Origin: Xiphydria camelus
Lineage: Eukaryota > Arthropoda > Insecta > Hymenoptera > Xiphydriidae
Assembly (NCBI GenBank): GCA_963678675.1
Contig: OY783193.1
Span: forward strand, 5,401,501-5,465,500
DNA: 64,000 nucleotides
Direction: 5' to 3'
The notes below the pieces were generated by a model. It saw only the letters and a list, made by a program, of their open reading frames with translations. It was not told where the DNA came from and did no database searches. Position numbers and translations under genes: made by a program. Within the stretch, counting starts at the first letter, position 1. Every line of letters starts with the position of its first letter. Of the stretch, positions 21,709-48,480 are shown one piece after another.

Positions 21709-21741
21709 ACCGCAACTGTCCGTCTCTAACGGAGGACCACA

Positions 21742-21811
21742 GAGCGTCTAAGGCAGGAGTCGGCCTAGCCTTACTGACGAGTCCACAGGCCGACTCCGAG
21801 ACGAGACGCTC
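21742..21811 (+). ncRNA. Hammerhead ribozyme (type III layout), copy 1
   Basis: Stem III 5' strand GAGCGU with cleavage triplet GUC (C at 21748). Stem I UAAGGC/GCCUUA (21749-21754, 21768-21773). Core box CUGACGA (21774-21780). Stem II GUCC/AGAC (21781-21784, 21799-21802). Then GAGA and stem III 3' strand CGCUC (to 21811). Stem I is perfect. Stem II has one mismatch, and the core GAAA has an A-to-G change at the invariant A14 position (21805), so this copy is probably inactive. The open stem is III. The 3' strand of stem III (CGCTC) is exactly the target site duplicated by the inserted transposon. Confidence 0.85.
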
Positions 21812-23384
21812 CACAGTGGTCGATTTCGCACATCGGCCATTCTGAAAAAAGTGAAACCAATCATTCAGATTTTCAGATAATGTAAATAGGCAATCTAACA
21901 TCTAATGTGATTCAAGAGATGCTTCATAATAAAGAAAACACGGAAATTGATTCGAAAATTTCAGTTTACCGCTTTTTTTCAAGTGCAATCTGCAGTACCG
22001 GCAAAAACGCCGACGGCAGCGCATTGTCGTGCCATCATTGTGAGCCCTGTTTCGAGCCGATTATATGCGCTTATGACTTTTTTGAGGTTAGATAACTAAA
22101 TACGTTGTTTTGTTCTTTGAGCGACCTGAATTTCATCTAGAACGGTGAGTTTATTGAAATGTTACGACGTTAAGAACCTTTTGTTGTTTCAACGTCACCT
22201 CCGTTACCCACAAAAATGACTAAAGTTTGAATAACCTCGATGTATTCACTTGTAAAGATTGGCGATTTCGGAAACAAAGTTAGACGATGACAAAAAGTAC
22301 AACCAGTATTTTCTCCCTAATTTTATTTGATGTATTTCGGAAGAAAACTAGGTAACGGAGGTGACATGAAATGAGATCGGATAGTTAACGTCTCACTTGC
22401 CATCAATGGCACTTCTTCAAAAAATATTTTAAACTCGTCCTATTTTGACAGATCATGCCTCCAACTTCCAAAAGAGAATTGATGGCCAAATCTCGGAAGA
22501 AACAAAAACAGGATGCTGACAAATGGGAGGAGTATAAAAAAAAAGAAAGAGAACGAAAAAAAGTAGCTTACTACAAAAAAAAAGCAACTATGACTGAAGC
22601 GGATCTGTTAGATCTAAGAAGATATAATAATAAAAAGCAACATAAATCTCGACAATTAAAGAAAATGGCTGATATAGCCTTATCTCAAAGTCCTACTAGA
22701 AAAAGGGGTTCGTACAAATGCCCTCAAAGTTTTGGAAAAGCTGTTAGTAAGGTCACTGCTGCACTTCCAAGAAGCCCAAGTAAACGAAAAGCCGTAGTAA
22801 ATGAATTGGTAAAAAGGACAAGCGATCCAGAAACCTGGTTTAAATTCAAGAATCTCTCCAATCCTGGCCTTCCGAAGGAAAATGAAACAAGAGCTCTGGT
22901 TGAAAAAATTTTTTTATAACGATAATGTAAGTCGTCAAGCTCCAGGAAAGCGTGATGTCAAATCGATAAAAAATAGCGAAACCGGAAAGCGAGAACGCAT
23001 TCCAGTACGTCATATGCTAATGAATGTCAGCGACGCGTATTATGAGTTTATAAAGGAAAATCCTGATGTGAAAGTTTCCTTAGCGTATTTCTATTCATTT
23101 CGGTCTAAATGCGTTCTTCCCGCAACTCAAACACCACATAATGTTTGTGTATGTAAATGTCATTGTAATTTTTCGTTTGCTGTCGAATCAGTTCACACTT
23201 GTTGCGAAGTATGAGTAATAAGTAAATAAATTATATGTAAAATCATTTTTGTTATTTCCACATTGATTGTATAATTGATAGTAGGTACCTTTCGCTAATA
23301 TTTGTTATTCTGGTCTTGAAATATAGATTCTATATGTGTGAAAAAACAAAAATCGACCCTAAATGTGCGAAATCGACCACTGTG
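21812..23384 (+). mobile_element. DNA transposon, 1573 bp, CACAGTG termini, 5-bp target duplication
   Basis: The two ends are 22-bp perfect inverted repeats (21812-21833 and 23363-23384) beginning CACAGTGGTCGATTTCGC. The target CGCTC is duplicated (21807-21811 and 23385-23389). It carries one broken gene (22455-23214), a possible 5' leader intron (22145-22451, GTGAGT..TTTTGACAG) and AATAAA at 23225-23230. The CAC-beginning TIR and 5-bp GC-rich duplication resemble Transib elements; CMC/Chapaev elements also begin CAC but make shorter duplications. The gene fragment does not let me decide the superfamily. Confidence 0.82.
22455..23214 (+). pseudogene. Transposase-associated gene of the inserted DNA transposon, frameshifted and short
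   Basis: The first frame (22455-22919) gives a very basic, Lys/Arg/Glu-rich N-terminus (about residues 1-75, coiled-coil-like). A neutral segment follows, ending NPGLPKENETRALVEKI. A T7 run (22909-22915) has one base too many. Reading past it in the next frame continues smoothly: YNDNVSRQAPGKRD, then IPVRHMLMNVSDAYYEF, then a Cys/His cluster TPHNVCVCKCHCNF near the stop at 23214. Both halves together are about 250 residues. I recognise this Cys-rich module as one found in multicopy, transposon-encoded proteins of insects and cnidarians, but I cannot name the superfamily. No DDE/DDD catalytic core is visible, so the copy is likely internally deleted. The T7 indel could also be a sequencing error. 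Confidence 0.65.
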
Positions 23385-23489
23385 CGCTCCGCCGATAAAT
23401 GGCGATCGCTCTTTTCGCGACACCATTATAGTCCAATTCGGATCGGATTGTGCCGTTCTCATCATTCGGTAAGGTTTTTCTGTTGCAAA

Positions 23490-23560
23490 TTGCAGTCTGT
23501 TGCAGGAGTCGGCCTAGCCTTACTGACGAGTCCACAGGCCGACTCCGGGACGAAATGCTC
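23490..23560 (+). ncRNA. Hammerhead ribozyme copy 2 (5' strands decayed)
   Basis: Core CUGACGA (23523-23529), a perfect stem II GUCC/GGAC (23530-23533, 23548-23551), intact GAAA (23552-23555) and stem III 3' strand UGCUC. The 5' side has drifted: TGCAGTC, TGTTGC and AGGAGTCGGCC replace the expected stem III and stem I strands, so neither stem pairs. Not expected to cleave alone. The cleavage position is 171 nt after that of copy 1 once the transposon is removed. Confidence 0.7.
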
Positions 23561-23603
23561 CGCCAATTAGATGTCGAAGTCACTTTTCGTTCGCCACAAT
23601 AAT

Positions 23604-24745
23604 GATTTTTGTCCTTGTTCCTTGACACGTTTGACGCATACTTCGGGCATGAAGAAGTGGCATATTATATTCGAGAATAACAACTCGCGTTCGCTATTCG
23701 CTTACGGATCGAAAGCACGACGGAAAAACGCGGCACTTCTCATATATCCTCCCCTATAGACAGCTATGCCATGCGTTCGATAATAAAAAAAATAACAGCC
23801 CAGCCCCAGACTCTTGAATTTCACCGACGACGGCGCGAGAGCACACGACTTACAACGCGCTCGACCGTCCGACGAGACGAGGTGATAATTACTTCTACCC
23901 GAGGGGCGGGAAAGGGGAGCGAGAGCAGGAGGCGCGGTGGATGAGAGCCGCGTTTGGTTATTGAAACTACGGATGAGGACGCGCGCGGTGGTAACGTCGC
24001 CGCGGCGTTCTCGGCCCGCCCGCTATCCGGAACGTTAAATTACATTTACGACGCGCGCGGTCGACGACGGGTAATCTCGGTCACACAGAGAGAGAGAGAG
24101 AGAGAAGGCACCGTTGATCGCGCGACGTTTATTAATACTCAGGTATTATTGTAATATATATATATACGGGGGCGGTTGCGCAACCTCATAAACGCCCGGG
24201 CTTATGGTGGGGCATGAGGAAAGAGAGAGAGGGATAGAGGGAAGGGGGGAAACCCCTTGTGACACTAAAATCTCGAGTTTACACCCCGCAACCAACGTTT
24301 ACGGGTCTCTTTGAACGTCGCCGCCATTGACGTCTCTGTCATCCCAATTAGGACGCAATAAAATTCCAGGTTTTTGTCGGACGCGGACGGCGGCGACGGC
24401 GGGGGTTCGGCGGAGTTTAGGGTTGAAGAGCGCGCGCAAGGGTTTTCCGGAGATCGCGTCGTGCGAGGGTCCAGGGAGGGTGCGAGGAGTGTTTTCCCTC
24501 TCTCAGGGGAGATATACCTGTTATTTTATTTCGCGGGACGCGTCCGCCGCTCCGCTCGTTTATAGTTGGTTCTCCTGGACGCGCGGGACTTCCGGGTTTA
24601 CCGCGAATTCCGTCGCGTTTCCCTTTTCTTCGGACGGCGCGCCCTTTAATTCCGGAGTTTTTAGTAAAAGATGACAAAGGGAGTTGTTCTTTTTTTTCTT
24701 ATCGATGTAGACGAGAATAAAGCGAAACATTCTCGAACTCATTTT
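23604..24745. other. Non-coding stretch with simple repeats
   Basis: (GA)n at 24087-24105 and TATATATATA at about 24154-24165. CpG-rich 23820-24060 and 24370-24660. A purine-rich segment (GAAAGAGAGAGAGGG) lies at 24220-24250. No gene recognised. Confidence 0.5.
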
Positions 24746-25325
24746 CGTTGAGCGAGAAGAATGATTAGCAATGTTAGCTAAACGTTTGGTTGATATGAGA
24801 ACAACGAAATATTTTTATTGCGACGACAAATGTTTGATTGGCATAACCAAACATTTTAGAAATATTACGCGGAAATAAAAGAATTAGCCATTTTTACAGT
24901 GTCCTCCAATAATAGGGATCCTCGAGGTTAAAATTTGAATTTTTTAAGAGACACAGCGCAATTTTTACAACGCGTAACAGTATAATCCCATAAACATTCG
25001 TTTCAAATTAACAGGAGTAAGTTTTAACCTATAAACTGATGTTCAAATTCTGTTACAAACTGTAAAAAGTACACGGAGAGAAGAGTATAGGTAGGTATAT
25101 ATATAGGTATCTATTAAAAAATTCAATCTTTCACCTCGAAGAAGGATAAACCGCAAAAATTCATCGGATTTCTCATCATTTTTTACTAATCCTTTTTCTC
25201 CGTGACACGATGCCACAACCAACATTTATTTATCGTAACCGAAAGTTTGTCGTCACGATACAAATATTTCGTTGTTCCACATCAATCAAACGTTTGGTTA
25301 ACACTACTCATCATTTTTCTTAGTG
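24746..25325. mobile_element. Composite foldback element with nested small MITE
   Basis: The outer arms match inverted: AACGTTTGGTTGATATGAG, AACAACGAAATATTTTTATTG and GACGACAAATGTTTGATTGG on the left against TCGTCACGATACAAATATTTC, GTTGTTCCACATCAATC and AAACGTTTGGTTAACAC on the right. The right end is TTTTTCTTAGTG. A smaller element with CACGGAGA termini lies inside at 25072-25204. The left boundary is approximate. Confidence 0.68.
25072..25204. mobile_element. Nested small MITE with CACGGAGA termini
   Basis: CACGGAGAGAAGAG after TA on the left; CCTTTTTCTCCGTG on the right. 133 bp, AT-rich, non-coding. Confidence 0.55.
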
Positions 25326-26039
25326 TTCGAAATAAATAAATAACTTACAATTTTCCGCAAATAAGTAGTAATTCATTCACGAATAACTGAATCTCCACGG
25401 CTTCTTCCTTCCTCTTTTTACTCGTCTATTTGAAAGGTGCGAATTCTCCTTTCGATTCGACCGGATATCAATAAAATCCATCAAGTACGAATACGTTAAG
25501 TTCACAGCATTTCACCCGCACGCTCATTCGCGTGTCGACGTGAAACGTCGCTGCGACATCGAAGCGCAACAAACTCGCTCGCCTTTCCGCGCGCGCATAC
25601 GCGCCGCTGCACATCGAAAGATCAGCCGGACGAGCCGGCGGGCAGGTACAGGGCTCTGCGGACGCGCGCGACGACTTTCAGTGTGGTTTTCCAGCGGTCG
25701 GGACAGAAAAGCCGCGTAGAACGAATCGCGGGACACGGCGGGGGGGCGGCACAGAAAACAAGATCTCATCTAGATAGGTAGACGCGCGCGCTCGCGCTCC
25801 CTACTCGCACCCACTGACGTTGCACGCCCGTGCAACTGCCATGCACCATTAGCCGAGACACTGCAGCGCGAGGGAATCCTCTCGTACGGGAGAGGACGGG
25901 GGTCTCGGGGAAGATAGAAAAGAAATTGAGAGAAAAAAGCCACGAAACGAGAGTCACGATACATGGATCTCCCTTCTTCTTCCTGTTTTAGCGCTGGTCG
26001 CGCGCTGAACGGCGTGTCTTTCCTGTAATATCGTGCCTG
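25326..26039. other. Non-coding stretch, CpG-rich part without gene
   Basis: CpG-rich 25500-25870. Overlapping minus-strand frames of 63-90 codons have no domain. Nothing else seen. Confidence 0.5.
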
Positions 26040-26200
26040 CACTGAAAAAAGTATTTAGCTAATCCAGCTATATTTCTGGCTGCCTCAGACACAACTAGAA
26101 AAATATTGCTAGCGTAGCAAGAATTCTTGCTATTGCGAAGAAAATTATCACTGCAATTACTATAAGTAATTTTCTAGTTGTGGCCAAATTTTTTTGAGTG
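26040..26200. mobile_element. 'CACTGAAAAAA..GGCTGCCTCAGAC' MITE (copy 2)
   Basis: CACTGAAAAAAGTATTTAGC, TCTGGCTGCCTCAGACACAA, AGCAAGAATTCTTGCTATTG and the end TTTTTTTGAGTG. It is flanked by TG on both sides rather than TA. Confidence 0.88.
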
Positions 26201-27272
26201 TGCGCGTTAACCATCCTCGCGATGCGCGTCGCTTATCGCTCTATAGTGGAATTCTGGGAGACGAGGGGATGGGGATGAGGGTGGAAGGGGGATGTAAACG
26301 TTCGAATTTAAAATCGCACGAAAGGTCGTCGGCGAATCGATGGCCGAGGATATACGTCGACGTATATCATAATATCTGTATTTACTTACCGTAATTTAAG
26401 CTAATTATATAAAAATCGAAAAGTAGGGGCGATTGCGCAACAGTAATGCTAATAATTTCAAATCGAATTGCGATTGGATGTTGAAATGGTCATCAAATCA
26501 TTCGTTGGTCGCACGTACGTTGCACTGCCAATATTGAAGTGAGCTGATGCACGCATAATTGCATAATGATGCGGTGCAGCGTTGTTTGCAGTATCGATAC
26601 AATATTTATCTACGCTGCAATATTAACTGCGTAATATTAGCCATCCATGCGTTTTAATATTAACCGACTGCGTTATAACATCAATTCTCTCTGCGTGTAA
26701 TAAGACGTCGATAGTCCGCTCGATCGTGGGCTAAGAGGGAGGCGGTCAATTATGACGAGCTGTATTAATGGCTAATTATCGTATCGCTGCAGGCGGTGTA
26801 CGCGTATGTGTGAATTAGTTGTCTATGATCTAATATTAACTACACAGGTTGCAGTGTTGACTCTTTCACAGCGGTAAGACTTTACGGAAAAGGCAATTAT
26901 TTTTATAGAGGTTGAGCTTAAGCTTTTTTACTCAATTAAAAAAGTAAACAGAATTAAGACGTCGGTGTATCTACTAATTTCAGTTTGTCTCTATCGAAAC
27001 GAACTTGTACCCTCTCCAGTTTGACTTATACACTTTGGATTGACTCAATTTGTCTACCACTGTAAATTGATTGATGAGACGCGCAGCTTTTTACTGTTTG
27101 CAGCAAAAGGCGAACGTGCCATTGTACGATGCATTCAGTAGGTACACTGCATAGCATTATGCTTCTCCACATCTCCCCCATTCTGCACTAATTTTTCTCC
27201 GTATCTATAATTTATGTGCAATGAGATTCTCTTTATCGAGAGACTTTACAATCCCAATGTGCTCAAAATACA
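26201..27272. other. Non-coding stretch; candidate regulatory segment near 26730-26830
   Basis: No coding sequence. 26560-26830 is rich in ATTAAC/GTTAATATT/TAATGGCTAATTATCG words and not built from the MITEs seen elsewhere. Regulatory function is inference. Confidence 0.3.
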
Positions 27273-27383
27273 CACCGAGAAAAATAATTAGGTTAAGATG
27301 ACAAAACGCGCGCATCTAGTTAAATACGTTTAGTTATTCCAACCGAAATACTCAATACGATATATTAATAATTTTTCTCAGTG
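27273..27383. mobile_element. Short (111 bp) copy of the 'CACTGAGAAAAATAA' MITE
   Basis: CACCGAGAAAAATAATTAGG, ATCTAGTTAAATACGTTTAG, TTATTCCAACCGAAATACTC and the end ATTTTTCTCAGTG. The central part is deleted. Both flanks are CA. Confidence 0.78.
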
Positions 27384-30300
27384 CATCGTCCAAAATGCAT
27401 GGCGGTAAAAATCCTCCTATTTTGCCAACCCTGGACACACTCATTTCCTCCCCCCCTCTCCCTCAACCTTCATCATCCCTCGTCTTATTTCCAGCAGAGA
27501 TTCAACGATCGTCGTTGCACCTTCCAACGATGCACCGCATCTTATAGATATACACTTCGATTCGCAGTCACCGTATCATCGCAATTCCATCTTCTCCCTG
27601 GTGAGAACGCTCGCGCGCTACACGGCGAAGTCGTGAAAAGGTTCGCGTTACGCGAAGGGTCGAGATAAAGAGAGAGGAGCGCGGACGAGTGGCAACGGGG
27701 GATGAGGAGGGAGAGGGGGGGGGGGGAAGAGGGAAATAGAAGGATGGAACGCGCGAGAGAGTTCAGCACCTGCCTTCAATTCGGAAAGGCGTCGAGCCTC
27801 GTGGCTGGCGTAGAGTACCTATATGATGGCGCGAACAGAGAGAGAGAGAGAGAGAGAGAGACTAGACGCGCGGGGCTCAAATAGATGGTTTCAACCGTGG
27901 CATGAGAGTGGTTCCGTATAGGAGAGATGTTATCTGATTTGGTGGGAGGCATCCGCGCCGATATGTATACAATGCCATAGTCGGGAATATTACAGCCTTG
28001 ACAAATTGCCGCGCTCTGAAGGCCGACCCCGGTAATTACGGGGCAGCCGCGTGGATACCTACGTACCCGCGTATAAGCGCGGCGCGAACCTCTCCGCGAC
28101 TGTAGCTACGTTTCTCTGTCCGTTTCCTGTCGTCGCACGAATATACGCGCGGATACGTGCACGCGAGCGATGGTTAAGAACGTGCAGGCGAAACGGGGAG
28201 TAGGATAACCCGCAGCGGGAGGGAAGGTCGAGAATCGCTGAGCGGGCGAGCGAAACTCGACCATACGGGGTATCGATTGCCCGATCTCCGAACGAGTCGC
28301 GACATTGACCGTGAGAGGTAGTGTTTCGCGAGGCGGATCATGGGATTGTGTGCTTGGATCGCGGTGAAGTTGATTGTTGGGAAAATGTGGCGTAACGAAC
28401 GCTCAAGTACCTATGCACCGATAAGAAATGTAATCGAATCGTCCGAATGTTGTCAACTGACCCTTTTCCGGTTAATTCGATTGATATTTTTATCGAATCG
28501 ATCGTGGCTTCATCTATTCAATAAAAATATCATTCGAGACAACTAGAGGAAAGTCAGTTGACGGCATTTCTTTATCATATACCTACTCTTTAGAGTTTTT
28601 GAATACACAGACATTTTTCGTTTTTGTAATTTCGCGGTGAGCTTACCACCTCGCGTATTAATTTAAGTAATCAATAGGTAATTATTAAGATGATCGAAGA
28701 CTGATTTAGTATTTTTTTCACTCCATTCCATTGCGAGTTTGATTAAAACGGAGGAAGTAAGTTTTTTTCAGTTAATACAGCAATTCGAAGTTGATTCGAT
28801 TCATCTTCGGAGCAATATTCTTAATCAGACTTGTACAGATTTTGAAATAATAGCGGGAAATATCAACAGATTTTTACCTCCAATTAAGCGGAGATATAAA
28901 AGACCCCAGCGATTACTCCCTTCGATAAATAAATATCCCTCCAATTGAAATCATTCACCCATCTATCCTCATTTCCAGCGTCGATATCGATAACGAATTC
29001 CAATGCCGAATTAATTCGTTCGGAGATAACGTAGTCACCCCACCCCTTTACAAACGCCGCCAATTTTTTCCCCGCGCTTCACGCGCACCATCCGTAATTG
29101 CCGGGAAGCGCGAATCCGACGATACCGCCGAGGGTTCGCCCGAAGGATGACGATTCCCGGTTTCCGTTGCCGCGTGCCCCATATTATCCAATGAAAGGTG
29201 TTTCGTAATTGAATATTTATTCGCGGCGTCGAGGAGACCGGAAGAAGCGGATACGAGGATCGATCGTTGTCGAAAAGCGAGGAAATGCGCGTCTCTTGCG
29301 TTCGCCACGCGATTACGATCGATCCTCTCCGTTGCTCCGATCGGAAAGAGGAGAAAAGAGCAGTAGAACTTTGCAATATACGTCTTAACTCGACTGCAAA
29401 CTGCAGTTTGTTCGAATCAAAGAGATTTTCATCCCAATTAATCCGCAGAAATTCATAGTCACGATTCACAACTTTACAACGATGTCTAATTTACTTCGAC
29501 GAAGGTATAACCGCGCGCGCGTCTCGCCGAGACACACGGATCGCGAAATTTTCCTCAACCGCGCCGCCGGATAATAGGGAGAGCGTAGCATAGTCGCGCG
29601 CTCGGGCGGCATTAGCATTTTCCGGCTTTTTCACAGATTACTTCGGCGTCGCCATTAGCGGACCTAATTTATGCATCATCAGCGCGAGCTGAGCGCAACC
29701 CTTTCCCCGCGGCCCCTACCTGCCGCCCCAAAAACCCCATCCTGCATCCATCTTTCGGCTGAAAAGTTTCTAAAGATTCCCCCGTTCGGCAGGAGAGAGA
29801 CAGAGAGGGGGAGGATTTAAGAGAGCGGGATAGTAACACAGCGCGCCGCGCGTCTTAATTACGTCCAAAGGGGCTGGCGTGCCGCGCGCGCGCGCCTTTC
29901 AGCGTAATATGGAAACGATCTCCGCTCCTTTTATACAAATAACAAAGGGGCTATAAACGGTAGGTACCTGTCCGCAGAGGATTGCCGAGGGACAAAAGGA
30001 CTATAAATTCATAAACGTGTCGCGCAGGGCGGGAGGGACGCGAAGGGGGGAGGACTCGATGGAGGAGAGCACCGCGCGCGGCACGCCGAGACGAGCCGTG
30101 ACGACAATAAGACAATAATCTCCCGTTCCTTTCCCGAGCGCTGCGCCTTCCTCGGAAACCGGGGAACAATGCCGTCGGATATCGTTTTCCTCTCGCTTTG
30201 GCCTGGGCATCCTGCATCCCTTTCGACTCGCTCGTTTTCGTTACTACGGAGATTCTTATACTTATGTGGAGGTTCGAATAATACAGTGAGCTCGCCATCG

Positions 30301-30407
30301 CGCTTTTGATTGAAGGATAAATGTTTTTGGCATCAGCAATTATTTCTTACAACGTAATCTGACATTTTACTCGAGTCTTCGTATTCCGCTTACATCGATT
30401 TAACATA
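27384..30407. other. Non-coding stretch with simple repeats
   Basis: Holds a G12 run (27715-27726), (GA)n at 27837-27862, a GTCAACTGAC..GTCAGTTGAC inverted pair about 100 bp apart (28454-28562) and CpG-rich patches at 28000-28340, 29040-29330, 29500-29600 and 29830-30180. The segment 29640-29690 (GCCATTAGCGGACCTAATTT, ATGCATCATCAGCGCG) could be regulatory. Minus-strand frames up to 144 codons carry no recognisable domain. Confidence 0.5.
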
Positions 30408-30604
30408 CACTGAGAAAAAAAAAGATTAAAAATTATTCTGTTAGGAGGATAATGTGAGTAGGTACGAAAGGTAAAAGAAATCAAAAATTATCTTTCCAGG
30501 GTTTAAAATTTCACCTTTCTTAGGATAATTTTTGATCTATTTTACCTTTCGTACTCAGATTATCCTTCTAGCACAATAATTTTTAATATTTTTTTTTCTC
30601 AGTG
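30408..30604. mobile_element. 197-bp palindromic MITE with perfect TA target duplication
   Basis: CACTGAGAAAAAAAAAGATT after TA, mirrored by ATATTTTTTTTTCTCAGTG before TA. The arms pair over most of their length (ATAATGTGAG..ACGAAAGGTA against TACCTTTCGTACTCAGATTAT). The left arm alone has an extra TAGGTA at 30459-30464. Confidence 0.88.
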
Positions 30605-31923: not shown

Positions 31924-32017
31924 CACTTTTTATCGAAATCAATTTGCCTCAAATTTAGAAAAAGCTCGAAAGACGTCCCTGACGCATTTCTCTGTTCCAT
32001 TTCAAAGTGCGCATCTA
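31924..32017. other. Short spacer between MITEs
   Basis: About 90 bp of unremarkable sequence separating two elements. Confidence 0.4.
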
Positions 32018-34470: not shown

Positions 34471-34487
34471 TACTAAATTCGCAGAAC

Positions 34488-35082: not shown

Positions 35083-35114
<32 letters not shown>

Positions 35115-38463: not shown

Positions 38464-38708
38464 TTCTGTAAAAAAATGTGCATTAAATTTAACATAATTG
38501 TATATAAAATTTTCATCCTCAATACGTGATTATGAAAATTAATATACTCCGTTATGAAATTTATAAGGGAAATTTCATAAAAAAATATATTACTTTTCAT
38601 AATTACGTAGTATAATATATTAATTTTCATAATGGTGTAGGTATTGGAAAAAAAAGCTTTACATTAAAGTAGGTACTTATATTAAAAATAAGAATTTTTT
38701 TTACTGTG
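38464..38708. mobile_element. 'CACTGTAAAAA' palindromic MITE (245 bp, partly duplicated)
   Basis: TTCTGTAAAAAAATGTGCAT, CCTCAATACGTGATTATG, ATGAAATTTATAAGGGAAAT, TTTCATAATTACGTAGTATA and TTTTTTTTACTGTG before TA. The TTTTCATAAT arm segment is present twice (38597 and 38623). Two TAGGTA insertions (38638-38643, 38670-38675). Confidence 0.82.
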
Positions 38709-39619
38709 TACCTATTTAGTTTGCCCTTACAATTAAAGGTATTGTTATTGGTAAGACGATGTGTCGCGCGAGAAAATTGTGAATAAAGGAATAATTTTTA
38801 ACCTCACGAGATATGTAAATTTTCTATCTCCTTTTTCAGTTAATTGCGAAATCAGTTCTTTCCATTTTACTTTTTATTTTCCCCTTTTAGATCCTCATAT
38901 CCTTTTATTCTTCGCGTAAGTATTTTATTGTGATAATAATGGTGGCTTATAGAGCTTCGAATTAGATCAGAATATTTAATTTTCTCGCTTCGCATTTCAA
39001 CGATTAATTATCAAATTGACTGAATATTGAATTACTCCAACTAATTACAGGTAAAAGTATCCTCGTATCTGATTTAACCGGTGAATTTTTTTGTTTTCAT
39101 TCCACATCCGAATGCAATCGTACCGATTACCACATTTTACCCCGCACCCTCCCACTCGCCCAATAACCATTCGACTCCGGTGGTCGAACGGAGCGCAGTC
39201 ACCTGGCCGAGCGGAATTATGTCACCTGGCGCAGCGCGCGGTCGCGTGAAAAGTCGAAACGAAATGCAGGGAACTAATTTACGCGCGTAGCGCCGCCCAT
39301 ATTCCGCGTTCGACTCAGGTGGCCCAGGAGAGGAAGACGACGTTACTTTCTTCTACCTGAAAGAAAGTCCCGCCGCCGAGACGCTTATGCGCGTACGGGG
39401 TAGCTATAACTCCGTGCACGTTACGAGCCGTGTTGAATCGCGTCCTCGACCCGTTTTCCTCGATCCCTCCTGTCGGCTCGCCGCGTCGCGCGCACCCTTC
39501 TCTGATCCTTCTTCGACTCTCTTTTTCTACGCTATTAGTTATCACTTTCTCACTCTTTCTCCATGCTACTATCGCTCTCTCACTCTCTCTCTCTATCTTT
39601 TATTTGTTCTTGATATATG
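38709..39619. other. Non-coding stretch, no feature recognised
   Basis: AT-rich to 39060, CpG-rich 39180-39520, then pyrimidine-rich (CTCTCACTCTCTCTCTCT) to 39600. Confidence 0.5.
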
Positions 39620-39839
39620 TATATCGTTTCGTCTAAGCAAACTGTTGATGCATCTCTCTCTCTCTCTCTCTCTCTATTATATAAAATAGTTTTTTCGATG
39701 CATCAAAAACCCTCGCCGACACAATGTTCTCTTATTATCGCGATAAGACTACTTGACTGCGCCGGTAAACACGACGACGCTCAGTCGGCGGTGTTTCTTT
39801 ATGGTACCTATATCGTTTCGTCTAAGCAAACTGTTGATG
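39620..39839. repeat. 31-bp perfect direct repeat flanking 158 bp, with a (CT)n tract
   Basis: TATATCGTTTCGTCTAAGCA followed by AACTGTTGATG occurs at 39620-39650 and again, identically, at 39809-39839. (CT)n lies at about 39652-39675, and GATGCATC occurs just after the first copy and again near 39699. A 133-codon plus frame spans the area but shows no domain. Confidence 0.85.
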
Positions 39840-40029
39840 TATTTGAATTAAGAAATAGTTGCAAAAATCACTTCAGTGACAACTATTCGAGTCTTTGTAA
39901 TCTGCACGACACTGAGAATCGTTTATTTGTAGTTGATAAAAGTACACTCCAAAATATACGGTGTAATAAATATTTCATTCAGACCAACAGATATTCCTTC
40001 ATTATTACTGAGTGTTAACTGTTCAGATT

Positions 40030-40159
40030 CGTTGAAATAATTACACATTTGATTCCACTGATCAGTATTTTCGATAGAATAACTAAACGTGTTTAACTAG
40101 ATGCGTTTCTTTTTTTTTATTCATTCCGTCTCATCTTAATCTAATTATTTTTCTCAGTG
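40030..40159. mobile_element. Right-end fragment of the 'CACTGAGAAAAATAA' MITE
   Basis: ACTGATCAGTATTTTCGATA, GAATAACTAAACGTGTTTAA, CTAGATGCG, a T-rich expansion, and the end CTAATTATTTTTCTCAGTG. Confidence 0.72.
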
Positions 40160-40954
40160 CGACAAGGACGATCGAATTGACCGAGTCTTTCCTAGCACCG
40201 TTTCACGGCAAATCGCCGGTCGTCGACGCATTCTTGTCGCAGCTGTAAACCTACATACATCCCCGCGCGCGATAAATCCGCGCATTTTTTTCCCGTGAGG
40301 TCGCCCCTAATCTCCGGGCGGATCTCGTCTCGACGGCACGACTCATTACGATAAGCGAGTGATGTCACGCGCCCGCGTATTCCTCTCTCTCGCGCGGCGC
40401 ACGCGAAAGAGCCGCGACGTACGAGGCGAGCTGCCAGGTATATGAAGAGGGAGAGACTCGAACGCGGGTAGAGTACGTGGCATCGATCAAACGCGCCACG
40501 AGTCACGGCGCGCGGTGACATCAGAGACTTCCGAGCACCTCGCGCGATATAGGCACACCCACAATTACACGCGTTTACGTATACAACGCGTGCATGTACG
40601 TAAGCGCGCGCCATTCTATCGCATCTCCGTTTCCCATGGAATACATTACACCGGGCGACGTGCGTTACAATGCGGTCCTCTCTGGAAGACAGATTATCAT
40701 CGAGAAGCGATATCTGTAGTCGTCGCTGAGCGTGTGTGCGGCGGTATCGCGCCGTGCGGTCTCCTTGCCGCGTGGATATATGTAGAGGTCGATTCAGAAG
40801 AAAAGGTCGTCGTTCGAATGTTGGAAGCCAATGGTTGACACGGAGCCAAAAGAGCTGATATAATATTGGAGTATTTGAGAATCGATAAGGGAAGCCGTCC
40901 GGATAGACTTGTATGATCGTCACGACGTTTATATAAATTACGATAATTGATCAT
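40160..40954. other. CpG-rich non-coding stretch with the longest spurious frame of the window
   Basis: A 243-codon minus-strand frame (40192-40923) is the longest here, but its composition (Arg-rich, no domain, opposite frames also open) and the CpG-rich base composition argue that it is a by-product. Confidence 0.5.
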
Positions 40955-41303
40955 TCTAAAGTTTACTTAATTTTTGTCGCATGAGTTCAGAGAAATCATC
41001 GTTCTTCAAAACATTCTTAAAGTTAAGTATATTATAATGTGATTTAAATTGATCGTTATATATTGGTAACATATTATATTTACGAAAAATTGTGCATAAA
41101 TTTAATAAATGTTTAGCTGATTGCGATAATTGGTCGCGCGCGCGCTCTGAGAAGTTTATATTTTTCTGCTGTATGAGTTCAAAAAAGTTATTGTTCTTGA
41201 AACAATTATTAAATTTACATCATAATGCGTATTAAATTAATCGCTGTATTAATAACATATTTACGAAAAATTGTGCAATATCGAATAAATGTTTAGCATT
41301 TTA
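40955..41303. repeat. Diverged tandem duplication (~175-bp unit, two copies)
   Basis: Both units share AAGTTTA.T, GCATGAGTTCA/GTATGAGTTCA, TTCTTCAAAACATTCTTAAA / TTCTTGAAACAATTATTAAA, ATTTACGAAAAATTGTGCA and TAATAAATGTTTAGC / GAATAAATGTTTAGC. Related sequence lies inverted at about 44110-44325 and, in part, at about 46340-46420, so this is a dispersed family. Confidence 0.7.
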
Positions 41304-41796
41304 TTTATGCTAATTTGAAATTATCTCATGAGCTAAGACTACCTAAAGTTGCTGCACAATTTATGGACACTTGTCTAACTGGTTGCATTTTCGAGCATTG
41401 TTGATATTCGGTCGGTAGCACAATGAAAAATATAAGGAACAAGGAAAATGAATAAGGATTTCAATTAATCATGGATGCAGTATATTGAAAGGCGACGAAT
41501 CGAAAGCCTCTTCCTTGTTCCATATTCCTCATATTTTTGATGAATGGTCCTGTATATTACTACGCCAATTTATTGATGAATGATTCTCTACATTGTGCGA
41601 TACCTACGGTACGATATCCTAGGTGATGTCACACGGAGACGAACGCATTGTTCGCGAAAAATAATATTCATTGCAGAAACTGCAATGTCACATAAATGCC
41701 GCAGAGATTGACCTTGTGTGACGCATAGGACACACTCTACACATTACGAAAAATGTTTGATTTAGCATACGGCTTGTTCTTTCGTATTTAAACAAA
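41304..41796. other. AT-rich non-coding stretch
   Basis: Contains AAAATATAAGGAACAAGGAA and its imperfect inverse TTCCTTGTTCCATATTCCTC about 80 bp apart. This may be a decayed foldback element. No gene. Confidence 0.45.
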
Positions 41797-41959
41797 AAAT
41801 GGTTAATCTAACCAGAGAGATTGGGGATCCATATTTCACCAAACGGTTTGGTCATGGTTTCCAGGATTTTGGTTTGATTGACCTGGTTATTTTTGTCAGT
41901 ACATATTGGAAAAAAGCTTTATACAAAAGTACACTAAAAATGCAATTTCTTTAACAGTG
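41797..41959. mobile_element. Two abutting MITE right-end fragments
   Basis: 41797-41900 is the 'CACTGAGAAAAATAA' family (CACCAAACGGTTTGGTCATG, TTTCCAGGATTTTGG, end TTTTTGTCAGTA). 41901-41959 is the 'CACTGTAAAAA' family (CATATTGGAAAAAAGC, end TTTAACAGTG before TA). Confidence 0.75.
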
Positions 41960-42505
41960 TAATCCTTCAAGAATAATTGTACAAGGACTACATTTTTCAC
42001 CGCTTTTTATAAATAAAGAATTTCCTCCCGTCCCCATCGAAAAAAAACGCTTTTCCGTCTCCAACCTGTAATATCAAATCGCGAGCCGTCCGAGTCCCGC
42101 GAAGCGAAAACATGCGAATTTCTATTCGAGGCACGACACCACAGCTGTAACCACATTTACACAGCCGGTATACGTATATCCACAAGAGTCCGACCTCTTC
42201 TTTCCCGCGTGCGGATAATTGCCGGGAGATTCGACCTTTCCTTATCGATCGCGCGCATCGATTTCGCGTGTCTCGGAACGTCGAGGAGGAGTAGGACTTC
42301 CTCTTTTTCTCGATTCGTCGCTAATTCGCGATCGATTCCGTGCGCTCGGCTTCGCTTCGACGGCGATGGAAGGGGGAGAACGGAGACCCCCTCCCCCTCC
42401 CCGAGGAGGTCGAGGTTCATCCCCGCGAAGAAGCCGGACGAGCTTCCTCTTCCTCCTCTTCACGCAACGACGCGGCTCTATAGACGTATATATATATATA
42501 TAATA
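41960..42505. other. Non-coding stretch ending in a (TA)n tract
   Basis: CpG-rich 42200-42480, with overlapping frames on both strands and no domain. (TA)n at about 42486-42503. Confidence 0.5.
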
Positions 42506-42731
42506 CACATGCCGTGTGAGGCTTAACTTACTCGCCAGGAAAGAGGAAACTTCAATCGCTATTATCTCGTTATCTATGCATTTTTCTTCTATATCGATAT
42601 AAGAATTTTTTGTAGATAAAGACGTGATCTTCAAAAAACTATTATATAAATATGAACGAAAAGCTCATAGTTAATGAGATAATAGTGATTGAAGTTACTT
42701 TCCCAGCGAGTAAGTTTAGCCTCATGTGGTA
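42506..42731. mobile_element. Palindromic MITE, ~80-bp arms
   Basis: Left arm TGTGAGGCTTAACTTACTCG, AACTTCAATCGCTATTATC, TCGTTATCTATG; right arm CATAGTTAATGAGATAATAG, TGATTGAAGTTAC, CGAGTAAGTTTAGCCTCATG. TA precedes the left end. The right end is approximate because TATA-rich sequence follows. Confidence 0.75.
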
Positions 42732-44099
42732 TACATATATACACATACGCGCACACACGTTTCGTACGAAAGAGTAACGTGGCGCGTATATGGAGACGGG
42801 GGTGGGACGTGGGGGGGGACCCCATTGTATGGAAATCGCACTGAGAGTCTCTCGGGGCAGAAGCAACGACTGTGACCAGCGGCTGGCTACCCGCCTACTC
42901 GTAATGTCCCTGTCAAGAAAGCGGCAAGCTTCGCTCGCGCGAGACCCGTAAAATCGGTCGCAGGTGTGTCGTGCTCGCCGGCCCTCGCCTTCCCGTGAGC
43001 GATACGATTCTATCGTACCTACCAACGCGTACGGGATAATTGCGCCGATGGTCGGGATAACGAAAACACCGATGTAATCGGTCACGTTACCGGCTCTGTG
43101 CGTCCTTTTCTCTCAATAATGAAATATACATCGTCGGTACGATCCGCCGGCGATCGCTCGACGGCGAATTAACCGTTTATCGATCAACATTAAACATTAG
43201 GCCAATAATGGACGCTCGCCGAAATCCGCCCAACGTAATCGCATCCGTTGCTTCGCTACGTGGTTACGAAAACCGAGTGAAATACGAAACGCGATCGGTT
43301 CGATCGAAAAAAAAAAAAGGAAGAAAAGAACTGTTCGATGCGCTCGCTCGATTACGCGAGCACCTCTTTAATTCTCCATTTCATTATCGCTCCATCCTCC
43401 GCGCCCAGGTATCGCCTCGTTATCAGCGACAGCGTATACCGCGCTCGCGTAATCTCGCCGCGGATTCGCTCGCAAATCGTCGGAGGCTCCCGACCGCGCG
43501 CGGCGCTCGTAACGCACACGCTCGGCGATCGACGCGCACCCTGAAATACCGCTTCCCGTAAATTATCGGAGCGCCTCGCGGTAATAAAACCACCGAATAA
43601 AACGGCGGGATGAAATTTATACGACGTATTTACGGAGTCGCGGGCGCGCGTCTCGGGGATCGGTGTCGGGCGGAATCGAACGAGACACCTCGTTGCGCCG
43701 AGAGGTCAGGACCGGCGCGAGACCTCCTGCGGACGAGCGTCGGGACGACGACTGCTGGCCCCGTCGTAAAAGTCATTTCTTTCGTGAGGGGAGGGACAGG
43801 TGACCGCGCGGTTGCGCGCGTCAACCGCTCGACGTTGAGAGGGGCCTCCTCTTGCGCGCGCGGCGCGATAGGCGGAGAAAATAATGAGAACAGCGACGGG
43901 CCGGGAGGTGCAGCGCGAGCGCGGAGTGACGGCGCGCGCGGTGTACGCGTCATCGTCGCGCGTTCTCCCCCACTTATTGCTGCGCATTGTTATGTTTGCG
44001 TTCGCTGCGAGTGTGCATCGCGGGTGTGGAACGACAGAGAAGTGAGATTTTAGAGAGAGAATATTTTGAATTCGGTTTTCTCATAAATATATAATATTA
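42732..44099. other. CpG-rich non-coding stretch
   Basis: CpG-rich throughout, with a G8 run near 42812 and A12 near 43309. Around 43150-43215 are words such as GAATTAACCGTTTATCGATC and CCAATAATGG that could bind homeodomain proteins. The frames at 43610-44053 and opposite strands carry no recognisable domain. Confidence 0.5.
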
Positions 44100-44330
44100 A
44101 TTTTTTTAAATTCAATTCGTAATCTGTAAACATAGGTATTTAATATCTCACAATGAAACTTTCGGGAATTCAATATAAGTGCAATTTTTCGTAAATATGT
44201 TGCTACGATAAATACAGCGATTAATTCGAATTATTATACATTATAACATAAGCGCGTGGCAATTTATTTGTAGAATATTTATTTTTTTTTAATTCACACG
44301 ACAAAACAAGCGTAAACTTTAGAATATTCT
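44100..44330. repeat. Inverted copy of the 175-bp dispersed repeat (see 40955-41303)
   Basis: Read on the minus strand it contains TCTAAAGTTTACGCTTG, AATTAATCGCTGTATTTATC and CATATTTACGAAAAATTGCA, in the same order as the tandem units near 41 kb. Confidence 0.6.
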
Positions 44331-45324
44331 GGGAAAATACGAGTAGCTCTATCGATCGAAGCATTACCGAGCTTCATCCACGACGCTCCACCGAAAATCG
44401 AAAGTCTTCCACGTTATTCCTCGTATAAATCGGCGCCGAATCGCGTCTCTCTCCGAGCGGGATCGCGCAGAGGTATCCGGGTGGCTTCCTTCGGGCGTCC
44501 TTAAGGAGCTGAAGGCAATAATCTCGATGGCTCGCCAATTACGTTCGTCTCGTGGCCATCTGCTCCTTCCCGATGAACACGGAGAAAGAGAGAGAGCGAG
44601 AGAGGGGGGGGGGGGGAAGAGAGACCCGGTGGCCGTGCGTACCGCTGCGCACTCCTCCCGTTCTCCACCTTTCTTCTATCCCCCTCCTCCCGTCCGCGCT
44701 AACCCTCCCATAAAACGAAACGCAAGAACCGAAATCGATGCCCGTGACCGCGGTTTGTCGCGATGATCACACGATCCGTCGTCCCTCCTCGCGCCGGATG
44801 AGGGGTTAGAGGAACTTGAGTTATGGGATATTGTGACCGCCGCGCGCGCGTTCGGCCGCGCCGCGGACACAGACCGATGTATAATTACGCCGAAATCGTA
44901 GTCGGTGATGGCCATACGGACGGACCCCTGTATACGCACACTCGCGTACTCGGGTTCTACGCGCGCACGGCGGGCCCGAAAATTGATCACGTACCCGACG
45001 CGGTCTGTCATTATCGGGAATAAAAGTCACCGCGCTACTAAAGAAATTTCGTGGGGCGACAATCCTCGCGGACGAGTGTAGGATCTCTCTTCGTATTTTC
45101 GACCGAGGATCGCTTCGGACGTCTCGGGCGCACGCGTGTAAGTGCCGCTTTGATTTGCGGGCCGCCGTGTAATGCTATTATTAAGTCGCGTTGTCGTTTT
45201 CGCGGTTGGATTTGCGACTGTTTCTTATTGTCGCTTCACTTTTATGCTTTCGTCGATATTAGTACTTTTTCAATTATCTTCGCCGGTATCTTCGTTATTA
45301 TTGGCGAACTCTGGTGTTGTATTA
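44331..45324. other. CpG-rich non-coding stretch with a G13 run
   Basis: G13 at 44604-44616 inside a purine tract. CpG-rich to 45150. No domain in the overlapping frames. Confidence 0.5.
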
Positions 45325-45482
45325 CACTCAAAAAAATTTGGCCACAACTAGAAAATTATAGTAATTGCAGTGATAATTTTTTTTCGCAATAGCAAGAATT
45401 CTTGCTACGCTAGAAATATTTTTCCAGTTGTGTCTGAGGCAGCCAGAAATATAGTTGGATTAGCTAAATACTTTTTTCAGTG
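45325..45482. mobile_element. 'CACTGAAAAAA..GGCTGCCTCAGAC' MITE (copy 3, inverted)
   Basis: CACTCAAAAAAATTTGGCCA after TA; TGCAGTGATAATTTTTTTTC, AGCAAGAATTCTTGCTACGC, GTCTGAGGCAGCCAGAAATA and ACTTTTTTCAGTG before TA. 158 bp with intact target duplication. Confidence 0.9.
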
Positions 45483-47146
45483 TAGGTACTTTGCAATGCT
45501 TTGCTTTTACAATCGTTTCTCTGGAATTTCGTTTAACTATTGAGATTATTGTTTTAAGGGGGCCATGGGAATTTTTCCGAGTTAGCTTCTCTTTTGGAAC
45601 GCTTTAGCTTGTTTAATTGGGTAGATATATTTATAACTGCAACGAATTTTGCATCGCTTCCATTATCGTTACGAAATCTATCCGCAAAACACGACGCATG
45701 AAACAATCCGTGAAGGGAAATCGATGATGAGTGTCCATCGAAAGAAGAAGGAGAAGCGCGCGCGTGCGCGCGGCTTCTACGGGAGATACGAAAAAGGAGA
45801 AAAATAGAATGTATGATACACGAAGAGGTTGGCGAGGTGGAAGGGGGACGACTGGCCGGCAATTATCCACGGTAGACGAAAAGCGACCGCTGCCCGCGCG
45901 CCGAGGGGCAACGGGCGTTAATTTTCTTTTGAGAAATAGGAAGCCGATTAGCATAGGAAGGAGGCGATCCCCCTATTGTAACGCGAGGAGGGCTCGCTTT
46001 CGGCCGTGTCCGCCGGACTCGCGGACCGTGGCGCCGGCTTCCAAGGGGCCGCGCGCGCGAGGCGCGAATGTGTCTCGGGAGAAGAGAGGCGCGAGAAACT
46101 CTCGAGTCTCCTATCTCGCGCGCGAGAAAGTCGCAATCGCACGCGCGCCCGCGCGCTCCGTTTCCGCAGGATGGATACACTCGCTCGGGCGTTTCGGAGG
46201 ATGCGCATCACTTTTTATGCGTTTCGCGATCAAACGTGAATTGGGAGAGATTTTAAATCCTCGCAAAAAAGAAGGTTTCTTTCCAGATGGACTTGTGTGA
46301 TCGTCGCGAGGTTCGTATAAAGTAAAATAATTGATTGCTCTAAAGTTTACGTTTGTCTTACCGCGTGGATTTGAAGAAATAACTACTTATTCTTAAATTA
46401 ATCGTCAGATTTACCCTAAAAAATTATGTTGATGAATTTGGAGCCGCCTATAACGCAAGAGAGTTTCATCATCTATATTTCTCCTTGGAGTCGAAGAAGC
46501 TAAAGGAAATAATCTGTACAATTATACAAATTGAAAAAAATACTTGCGTAATATTTCCAGTCGTCGTGAAACGGTCGAAAATATTGCCACGAATTTTGCC
46601 GTCAAAGCAAAACCAAATACAATATTTTTTTCAACCTACGTCAGCTTTTTCAAGGGATGGAGGGTTGTGTTACGAGTGAGTACGGATAAAAGGGGTCGTA
46701 CTGTACCCATATATCCCTTTCTCTCCGTATACGAGCCGAGGTTCGGGGAGGGCTCCACGTCACATTCGTTTCGAACGGGGTCTGCTGCGTGGAGCGAGGG
46801 TCGCGCAGAAAATAATTACGAGAGTTCGTCGTCGTGCCTGGCCCTGGCGAATTCGCTCGCGTGCAGCGTGGAGCCGACCGATAACGAGCTGCGCCGCTGC
46901 ACGGCGCTTCGTCGTATCGGGCTTCGCACGCGCGTGCACATACGGTGTGCGTATAGAGAGTAAAACGTTAATGACGGTTCTAGATATGGGATTTGAAATT
47001 GGATGGAAGAATTCGCACGCTTAGCGAAAAGGAAAATTATATGTAGGTACCTACCGATATACGCGAATCACGTGTTAATTCATAAAGCTTAAATATTAAA
47101 TAAGTTGAGTTATTATGAATCTTTCACAAATAAATTCAAGATTTTA
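45483..47146. other. Non-coding stretch, CpG-rich centre
   Basis: CpG-rich 45730-46200 and 46730-46950. A fragment of the 175-bp dispersed repeat (TGATTGCTCTAAAGTTTACG) lies near 46330. The 189-codon plus frame 45731-46300 overlaps minus frames and has no domain. Confidence 0.5.
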
Positions 47147-47254
47147 AAAATAAATCATTCCACTTATTCGCACATCAAAAAAAATAAAATTTATTTACGA
47201 ACCAATTTTATTTTATTTTTAATTGATGTGCGAATAAGTGGAATGATTTATTTT
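47147..47254. mobile_element. Near-perfect 108-bp hairpin (small MITE or hairpin locus)
   Basis: AAATAAATCATTCCACTTAT, TCGCACATCAA on the left is the exact inverse of TTGATGTGCGA, ATAAGTGGAATGATTTATTT on the right. The central part (AAAATAAAATTTATTTACG, CAATTTTATTTTATTTTT) pairs with a small bulge. No protein. Confidence 0.8.
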
Positions 47255-48207
47255 AGGCAGTTAATTTGACTGGTGTTTTACTGAGAGTCCTATTGAGCCT
47301 CGATTATCTCGAAACTCATGAGGTTTTTGTCGAAATTGGTAGAATACTATTTTGTAGAATATATTTCGATCTACAACAAATCTCTATAGCAGTATAGGCA
47401 AAAAATCCATAGATAACGAGATAATCACCCGCCGGAACGACCGTCTCAGAATGCGCTACCATACGGTAGTTCTAGTGTCAATTAAAAACCATGCGCAACT
47501 CGCGCGCAACAGACCATCGGCGCTTAAAATGAATTCCCTTTCGCACTGCAACCAAACATACAAACCGACTTCTCTCAGTTACCAAAACGAACGGAACTTT
47601 GCAATTCACGCCGGAAACATCGCGCGTGGCTAGACGCGAGAAAATCTCCGCGCCTACGAGGATACCGCGCAGTCCCGCGCGCGGATCCGCGTGTGGCCAA
47701 CCCCCCGCCCTCGAGTTATTAGCCGAGCCCGCTCTTCGTTAAGCCGGCGGGTTAACATTATAAATTTATCAGTGAGAAACGGGCGACCAAAAGAAACGCG
47801 TTGATCGAAAGATGGAGGTAGGAGGTTCACCTCTGACCTCCAGAAGTATTTCGATATACGCTCTCGTGCCGCGGAGATATTTATTGGAGATAATTACAAG
47901 AGCGGTCGTAAAGTCTTGGACGGGCCCGTTTCTTAGCTGATATCTTACACGGACGGGAGTAGAGAGGCTTGCGCGCACTCTATACGCGGTGTTCCTTTCG
48001 AGTCGGCTGCACGCGAAGGAGAGAAGTCGAAATCGAACGACAGTCGCCTCGTGTAATTCTCTACGCGAGAGAAAGTATCGTTTTTATGCAATTACACGTT
48101 GCATCATACTTTTTCCGTCGCGAATGAAATTTCAGATTTCTCCGAGAAATTCTTCAAGGATCACATTGAAAAGCTATAATTTATTTGATTTCTCTTCGCG
48201 TTGATTT
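47255..48207. other. Non-coding stretch with a second, looser inverted pair
   Basis: GATTATCTCGAAACTCATG (47300) and CATAGATAACGAGATAATC (47409) form an imperfect inverted pair of about 20 bp and may be a decayed foldback element. CpG-rich afterwards, with no gene. Confidence 0.5.
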
Positions 48208-48330
48208 TGTGAATACCCGTCACGCTGCGGCGGCCTGACGCCAGATGGCGCCGACCCTCTCGGCCCTCGACTCACGGCTCCCGGCCCACGGCTCTCGGCT
48301 CTCGGTAGTGGTCCGACGACGGGCAGTCAT

Positions 48331-48338
48331 TATATAAG
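48331..48338 (+). promoter_or_regulatory. TATA box of the ribozyme-bearing element (copy 2)
   Basis: TATATAAG, 34 nt before the first ribozyme base, the same spacing as in the 21.6-kb copy (21701-21708 to 21742). Confidence 0.5.
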
Positions 48339-48371
48339 AACGTAACTGCCGGTTTCTCACGGAGGACTACA

Positions 48372-48441
48372 GAGCGTCTAAGTCAGGAGTCGGCCTAGCC
48401 TTACTGACGAGACCACAGGCCGACTCCGGGACGAAACGCTC
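48372..48441 (+). ncRNA. Hammerhead ribozyme copy 3, all core nucleotides intact
   Basis: Stem III GAGCGU (48372-48377) pairs fully with ACGCUC (48436-48441). GUC triplet with C at 48378. Stem I UAAGUC/GCCUUA has one mismatch. Core CUGACGA (48404-48410) and GAAA (48433-48436) are intact. Stem II GACC/GGAC has one mismatch at the second pair. This is the copy most likely to retain some cleavage, with the C17/U1.1 bond between 48378 and 48379 as the predicted site. Confidence 0.87.
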
Positions 48442-48480
48442 GGCCGATTAGATGGAGACCACACCTTTTCGCCACAATTT

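Follow-up and report, generated by a model that had tools for sequence, protein, structure and literature searches.

The window examined in this work is a 64,000-nt stretch of the genome of the hymenopteran Xiphydria camelus (contig C10:5401501-5465500; genome assembly of 357 Mb in 38 contigs). It contains three copies of a 70-nt sequence with the plan of a type III hammerhead ribozyme, each located in the remains of a long terminal repeat (LTR), and the subject of this text is the family of small LTR elements to which these copies belong (Table 1). An earlier reading made from the sequence alone (hereafter, the sequence-only reading) had assigned the element to an insect. This agrees with the 128 matches in the genome to the insect odorant-receptor family PF02949, compared with none in 14 control genomes. 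The observed/expected CpG ratio is 1.61, which we take to fit Hymenoptera.

The three copies align over 70 columns, with copy 2 fitting without gaps from position 23491, and have a common layout: stem III (GAGCGU/ACGCUC), the GUC cut triplet, stem I (UAAGGC/GCCUUA), CUGACGA, stem II (GUCC/GGAC), and GAAA. The sequence-only reading had described three sites with this full plan, a different lesion in each, and a TATA box upstream of the ribozyme. All three statements hold, the last for copies 1 and 3. None of the three window copies is free of lesions. In copy 1, G replaces A14 and the distal pair of stem II is a C-A mismatch; copy 2 is missing the 5' strands of stems III and I; in copy 3, stems I and II each contain a single mismatch.

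The LTRs around these copies are of different kinds. Copy 1 has a U3 region similar to subfamily A and a U5 region similar to subfamily B of the LTRs described below. It is interrupted by a 1573-bp DNA transposon whose 22-bp terminal inverted repeats are perfect and which is flanked by a CGCTC duplication. In copy 2, the U5 is that of an older subfamily. Copy 3, a 269-bp solo LTR flanked by ATTT at each end, has an older U3. Because the copies differ in subfamily, their sequences identify them as three old, separate LTR insertions. The spacer before copy 2 has no relation to the U3 of copy 3 (104 of 500 shuffles were as good). The motif ATAAT, considered as a target duplication common to copies 1 and 2, was rejected because of the same difference in subfamily.

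Table 1. Ribozyme-bearing LTR copies and associated features in the window (L numbers are genomic loci of the family).
Feature	Position	Strand	Remarks
Copy 1 LTR U3, starts TGTGGCGA	21596..21741	+	85.6% identical to nearest subfamily A LTRs fetched
Copy 1 TATA box, TATATAAG	21701..21708	+	48 nt upstream of predicted cut site
Copy 1 type III hammerhead sequence	21742..21811	+	Predicted cut 21748/21749; lesions A14G and one stem II pair
DNA transposon nested in copy 1, directly 3' of ribozyme	21812..23384	+	22-bp terminal inverted repeats; foreign to the retrozyme
Repeated target CGCTC, then copy 1 LTR U5 end	23385..23422	+	U5 96.7% identical to subfamily B over 30 nt
Copy 2 hammerhead sequence	23491..23560	+	Without 5' strands of stems III and I
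Copy 2 U5 end, ..TTCGCCACA	23561..23598	+	Nearest L038 and L007 (93.3% over 30 nt), L003 (88.9% over 36 nt)
Left ATTT, probable 4-bp target duplication of copy 3	48204..48207	+	Flank letters
Copy 3 LTR U3	48208..48371	+	86.9% identical to L007 over 160 nt
Copy 3 TATA box, TATATAAG	48331..48338	+	48 nt upstream of predicted cut site
Copy 3 type III hammerhead sequence	48372..48441	+	Predicted cut 48378/48379; one mismatch each in stems I and II
Copy 3 kissing arm in loop I, GGAGTCGGCCT	48386..48396	+	Alignment columns 15-25
Copy 3 kissing arm in loop II, AGGCCGACTCC	48417..48427	+	Alignment columns 46-56
Copy 3 U5, ends CGCCACA	48442..48476	+	LTR boundary
Right ATTT, probable 4-bp target duplication of copy 3 (solo LTR)	48477..48480	+	Flank letters

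In published accounts, retrozymes with LTRs come from plants and carry type III hammerheads, and the retrozymes of animals are non-LTR elements, mostly with type I hammerheads (PMC4918200; PMC7229834; PMC7761336; PMC7936874). Here and below, statements on published systems follow those passages of the cited papers that were available to us. Insects have been mentioned as holders of type III elements, with reference to a paper "in preparation" (PMC7761336). Among the papers listed in searches of open-licence literature, judged by titles and the beginnings of abstracts, none reports an animal LTR retrozyme.

The ribozyme has many copies in this genome. A 27-nt piece that extends from loop I to the start of stem II has 667 exact copies (352 + 315), and its reversed, uncomplemented control has none. 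This comparison is decisive that the motif is more than a chance match. With up to three mismatches allowed, the 36-nt 5' half has 960 copies (488 + 472; control, 0). The genomic loci described below were sampled from the first 100 matches listed per search. An undamaged type III hammerhead (core CUGANGA..GAAA, GUH, and the three stems in order) is present in 54 of the 91 ungapped genomic copies examined, which upholds the earlier proposal that the majority form is intact and that the window copies decayed independently. An exact 22-mer had no match in either the viral or the prokaryotic collection. A covariance model built from the three window copies recovers those three, a match by construction; because the hairpin predicted for this sequence is symmetric, the opposite strands of copies 1 and 3 also score (28.9 and 24.2 bits), and the next match has an E-value of 0.18.

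Among the matches listed, many ribozyme copies are arranged as direct pairs 610-870 bp apart. Fourteen of the first 15 pair loci resolve into an LTR, a primer site, an interior, a polypurine tract, and a second LTR, and units of 629-865 nt from cut site to cut site are likewise found in 14 of these 15. L020 has no primer site, and L015, L016, and L023 have common flanks. Both LTRs of the complete elements carry the ribozyme, so the type III hammerhead does lie within an LTR, as the sequence-only reading had it.

There are at least 40 loci with exactly two complete LTRs; three of the 40 were dropped as repeated flanks, leaving 37 with distinct flanks. Both LTRs belong to one subfamily in 34 of them, and the mixed-subfamily loci L050, L058, and L062 were set apart. 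Exact 4-bp target duplications flank 28 of the 34 elements (24 different words). The remaining six are L009 and L030 (both one letter off), L068 (which matches if the LTR ends one base earlier), L051 and L054 (in tandem arrays), and L020. The primer site GTGACCCCGACGTGAT is found in 32 of the 34 elements and a polypurine tract ending GGGAGTAC in 33, and the two LTRs are identical in nine. Over all 37 loci, 61 of 79 LTR copies match the common 70-mer at every letter. Solo LTRs flanked by exact target duplications were also found (L001, L002, L005, and L008).

Two LTR subfamilies can be distinguished: subfamily A, of about 250 bp (..CGCCACA), and subfamily B, of 214 bp (..CGCCAAA). The total length of the elements is 874-1079 bp, some exceeding 1000 bp, and the LTRs measure 214-250 bp; the limits for terminal-repeat retrotransposons in miniature (TRIMs) are <1000 bp in total and about 100-350 bp for the LTRs. 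In eight elements, the longest plus-strand ATG frames encode 62-122 aa and are repetitive and unlike between the subfamilies (no family search was made), and in some frame there are stop-free stretches of 121-220 aa. Judged from sequence, the interior has no long conserved reading frame and the family is non-coding. The G+C content is 0.60-0.62 in all five units tested, and their predicted folds as circles are more stable than those of shuffled sequences in all five (z -2.0 to -4.5; 20 shuffles each).

Some loci have other structures. In the 5' LTR of L063, stem I of the ribozyme is interrupted by an insert of about 146 bp whose ends are inverted repeats (AGGCCATCAC..GTGATGGCCT). Tandem arrays were found on contigs C20, C10, and C6, namely, L079 (three B LTRs and two interiors), L080 (mixed subfamilies), and L078 (truncated).

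The ribozyme was compared with the adjacent LTR regions for conservation. Between L012 (subfamily A) and L010 (subfamily B), it is identical at 70 of 70 positions, and the alignments have 83 matches, 21 mismatches, and 46 gap positions in U3 and 29 matches, five mismatches, and two gap positions in U5. The common 70-mer is present in 32 of 35 A LTRs and 34 of 48 B LTRs. The difference per site in ribozyme, U3, and U5 is 0.004, 0.058, and 0.048 in subfamily A (35 LTRs) and 0.009, 0.023, and 0.007 in subfamily B, in a sample that retains L058, a locus later extended as L077. For loci found by a primer-site-and-leader pattern only, the corresponding values are 0.002, 0.043, and 0.048 in A (15 LTRs) and 0.008, 0.020, and 0.007 in B (23 LTRs). 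The ribozyme is present in all 20 loci found by this pattern (43 copies, 33 of them letter for letter), a pattern that was taken from ribozyme-bearing elements and samples part of the primer sites. In the window, the ribozymes are less diverged than U3 (copies 1 and 3; Fisher p 0.047) and less diverged than U5 (p 0.0017, 0.033, and 0.0053 for the three copy pairs).

Stem I has 6 bp and stem II 4 bp, so both are short; their loops measure 13 nt (loop I) and 14 nt (loop II). In every window copy, the two loops are complementary to each other along 11 nt (GGAGUCGGCCU with AGGCCGACUCC). On paper, these 11 loop-loop pairs are compatible with stems I and II in a kissing complex, and both would probably fit in space, given that 11 bp make about one turn of an A-form helix. 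The predicted energy of the nested hammerhead without loop pairing is -12.0 kcal/mol in copy 1 and -3.2 kcal/mol in copy 3, and that of the loop duplex alone is -22.3 kcal/mol. Perreault et al. described such pseudoknots in all hammerhead types and noted that those of type III accompany a two-bp difference between stems I and II (PMC3088659), a difference that the family here also has. A kissing helix that takes up the full loops was not met as a hammerhead layout in the passages of the literature consulted. A variant with T25 changed to G, common to L077 and L049, occurs in four of the 43 copies from the primer-site-pattern loci; it breaks the last kissing pair and possibly represents a sub-lineage with 10 such pairs.

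The primer site of the family (TGGTGACCCCGACGTGAT) is of the tRNA-Trp type. The Rfam family of the Rous sarcoma virus primer site, with scores below the cut-off, coincides with it in four of four loci. Rous sarcoma virus uses tRNA-Trp, and we take the primer of this family to be the same tRNA. Genome-wide, the 18-nt primer site has 276 occurrences (135 + 141), 125 of them together with the retrozyme leader. One of the other loci, L083, is a Ty3/gypsy-type element whose reverse transcriptase, RNase H, and integrase domains score over the cut-offs; its match to a retroviral-type protease stays under the cut-off. It has 284-bp LTRs that start with TGTGGC and end with CACA, an AGGG target duplication, a primer site, and a polypurine tract (GGGGGGGAGTA, CGGGGGGGAGTA), and its LTR ends, primer site, and polypurine tract are the same as those of the family; no CTGANGA was found in its LTRs. 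L081 has a reverse transcriptase domain, and the one frame tested in L082 had no Pfam match. These features make L083 a candidate helper, an element that may move the retrozymes. In plants, retrozymes and Ty3/gypsy elements have similar primer sites, polypurine tracts, and LTR ends (Cervera et al., PMC4918200), the same kind of kinship as that between the family here and L083.

The family thus has the anatomy of an LTR retrozyme, and it most likely works like one. We consider it probable that this is a high-copy, non-coding insect LTR family whose LTRs carry a type III hammerhead, with predicted cutting of its RNA, likely circles, and a Ty3/gypsy helper, as in plant LTR retrozymes. With more reserve, we lean towards a wider proposal: that animals own LTR retrozymes, recently active and mobilised by Ty3/gypsy elements; that an 11-bp, full-turn kissing helix joins two parallel stems of their ribozyme; and that two-unit insertions and mosaic LTRs trace copying from RNA circles.

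In such a cycle, transcription would start between the TATA box and the cut site, some 20 nt before the cut, because in copies 1 and 3 the TATA box lies 48 nt before it. The RNA would fold as a hammerhead with its two loops pairing over 11 nt, and the ribozyme would cut after GUC in each LTR. The two cuts would release a monomer of about 610-870 nt, lacking a cap and a poly(A) tail, that a host ligase would close into a circle. RtcB is the usual animal RNA ligase for such closure. tRNA-Trp would then prime reverse transcription on the circle, restoring two LTRs, and the integrase of the helper would insert the product. A linear monomer would lack the terminal redundancy needed by LTR reverse transcription; a circle would solve this problem, since it needs none. 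The circle route is the model proposed for plant retrozymes (PMC7761336).

A few insertions bear on this route. L077 consists of LTR_B, interior, LTR_A, interior, and LTR_B within AAGG duplications (2628-4125, with the locus turned ribozyme-forward). Both changes of type occur within the common leader, and a single crossover with a DNA circle is another possible source of them. In L063 (duplication TTAC) and L068 (ACCT, assuming an LTR end one base earlier), the LTRs partly differ, which is unlike standard reverse transcription; gene conversion can give such LTRs. These unusual insertions fit a circular template and would arise more easily from one, and recombination with a DNA circle is also possible. 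L062, which combines one A LTR with one B LTR and lacks a target duplication, may simply be a recombinant.

Several results weigh against the retrozyme interpretation or against the hammerhead observation itself. The lowest-energy fold predicted is a plain 11-bp hairpin (-37.4 kcal/mol in copy 1), so the active fold must combine the loop-loop helix with stems I and II. In subfamily B, U5 is as conserved as the ribozyme. Among the three helper loci read, reverse transcriptase domains are present in two and an integrase domain also in one of these. A permissive type III descriptor, with one mismatch allowed in each stem, matched only copy 3 in the window, which is not significant alone; dinucleotide-shuffled windows gave 15 matches in 30 shuffles (about 0.5 per window). 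The two checks proposed by the sequence-only reading, a covariance-model search with Rfam and a copy alignment with compensatory changes, did not come out in its favour. In the whole window, Rfam gave no hammerhead at E-values up to 5. When scanned alone, copy 3 scored 18.1 bits with RF00008, in a different register, and copy 1 scored 13.1 bits with RF00163. At all four loci with undamaged copies, the scores were below the cut-offs (RF00163, 21.9 bits, cut-off 34; RF00008, 21.7 bits, cut-off 48.5). Since neither the core nor the stems are damaged in the common form, the low scores are probably due to the long, unusual loops. As for compensatory changes, three of 945 pair cells changed on both sides among 35 distinct copies, and none is convincing. 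Most copies in this sample were found via ribozyme positions 14-40, so conservation there is biased, and eight fetched loci were dropped as repeats, together with all gapped or shorter matches. A young family from one species cannot decide the question of covariation.

The dominance of the hairpin among the predicted folds, together with the invariance of both arms in the three window copies, may also be read as a sign that the 11-bp loop-loop helix mainly represses a real ribozyme. It would then form a switch between hairpin and hammerhead, and cutting would be weak or timed, for example protecting finished circles. This alternative overlaps the retrozyme interpretation and differs only in the role of the kissing helix. 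We regard it as unlikely, since the arms join loop I with loop II and on paper coexist with stems I and II. In addition, the pseudoknot of a type II hammerhead raises activity, and its shortening lowers the rate about 20- to over 100-fold (PMC3088659).

The standard LTRs, primer site, polypurine tract, and 4-bp target duplications would equally suit an ordinary TRIM that moves via linear RNA, with the ribozyme as a passenger or a trimmer of transcripts. However, cuts in both LTRs would remove the redundancy needed for linear strand transfer, yet the young copies keep the ribozyme nearly unchanged. The partly differing LTRs of L063 and L068 and the two-unit insertion L077 would also be easier to obtain from a circular template. 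Movement as an ordinary TRIM is therefore improbable in our view.

We doubt even more that the conserved 70 nt are not a ribozyme at all and serve as an RNA or DNA hairpin for dimerisation, packaging, or strand transfer in the R region. The hairpin z-scores of copies 1-3 (-5.35, -3.27, and -5.01), the lack of an Rfam hammerhead above the cut-off, and the lack of covariation are what a hairpin of this kind would give, but it leaves the core, stem I, and stem II unexplained. With the hairpin arms fixed (outer 6/6, inner 11/11), the other 36 positions shuffled, and the layout set beforehand by the sequence-only reading, none of 100,000 shuffles reached the match score of copy 1, 2, or 3 (26, 23, and 26 of 28). 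Moreover, the core positions are among the least changed, at 0.016 per site per distinct copy, with part of the core lying within the search pattern. Finally, the view of the sequence-only reading that the three window copies form one small element is refuted by the subfamily assignment: ATAAT does flank copy 1 on its 5' side and copy 2 on its 3' side, but these two copies match different subfamilies in U5, and copy 3 is a solo LTR 25 kb away with its own ATTT flanks.

Of the known systems, plant LTR retrozymes have the anatomy found here. As in the family here, those elements have a type III hammerhead in each LTR and 4-bp target duplications (Cervera et al., 2016, PMC4918200; PMC7229834; PMC7761336). 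They also have a primer site and a polypurine tract shared with Ty3/gypsy elements, a non-coding interior, solo LTRs, units of about 700 nt, and a G+C content above 55% (PMC4918200). The differences are found in the host (plants there, an insect here), the LTRs (about 330-350 bp there, 214-250 bp here), and the primer site (tRNA-Met there, presumably tRNA-Trp type here; PMC4918200). The loops also differ, with short loops and non-Watson-Crick contacts in plants and 13/14-nt loops with 11 nt of Watson-Crick complementarity here (PMC7936874).

Among animal systems, metazoan non-LTR retrozymes have an animal host, a hammerhead, and a small non-coding unit. They differ in carrying type I ribozymes in tandem repeats of 150-450 bp with low G+C content and in lacking LTRs, a primer site, and a polypurine tract (Cervera and de la Pena, 2020, PMC7229834). 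The type III hammerheads of hepatitis delta virus-like RNAs from termite and toad and of termite and dipteran genomes have, like those here, an animal source and a Watson-Crick loop-loop pseudoknot, which here is predicted. They differ in stem I (5 bp, an internal loop, and an extra hairpin), in stem II (6 bp), and in a pseudoknot motif of 4 nt, and the termite genomic copies are isolated; a search for this architecture found none in hymenopterans (PMC7936874). A pseudoknot is also present in the active fold of a hammerhead with a crystal structure, as predicted here, but there, a 6-bp pseudoknot replaces helix II, whereas here, 11 nt would join the loops of two existing stems (PMC11300833).

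Two groups of miniature LTR elements are similar in other respects. PbTRIM of the harvester ant is a non-coding hymenopteran miniature LTR element with 4-bp target duplications and a TATA box. Compared by its description, it differs in LTR length (152-184 bp), a tRNA-Leu primer site, and AT-rich target duplications, and the passages available to us mention no ribozyme (PMC3532108). Helenus and Ajax, some of which are found in wasps, are miniature LTR elements with an LTR part derived from an RNA gene. That part comes from a small RNA gene (a tRNA in Helenus), whereas here it comes from a ribozyme (PMC10886601).

The window has a few other features. The transposon nested in copy 1 (21812-23384) contains a 154-aa frame (22455-22919) with no Pfam match over the cut-off and no homolog at E-values up to 0.001 among 64 candidates. 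A frame at 8252-8722 is similar to the HAT repeats of the splicing factor SYF1 (Pfam PF23220, E 5.9e-35) and is perhaps an exon or a decayed copy. A near-perfect palindrome of about 445 bp (7351-7794; 92.8%, BLAST against its own reverse strand) is probably an inverted-repeat element.

What seems new, against the passages of the literature consulted, is the plant-type layout of an LTR retrozyme in an insect, with hundreds of copies and some identical LTR pairs. Insects have been named among the possible donors of type III elements to plants (PMC7761336). If the retrozyme interpretation holds, a common origin of the plant and insect families would become testable, as would the question of whether RNA circles made by a ribozyme feed an LTR-type reverse transcriptase in animals.

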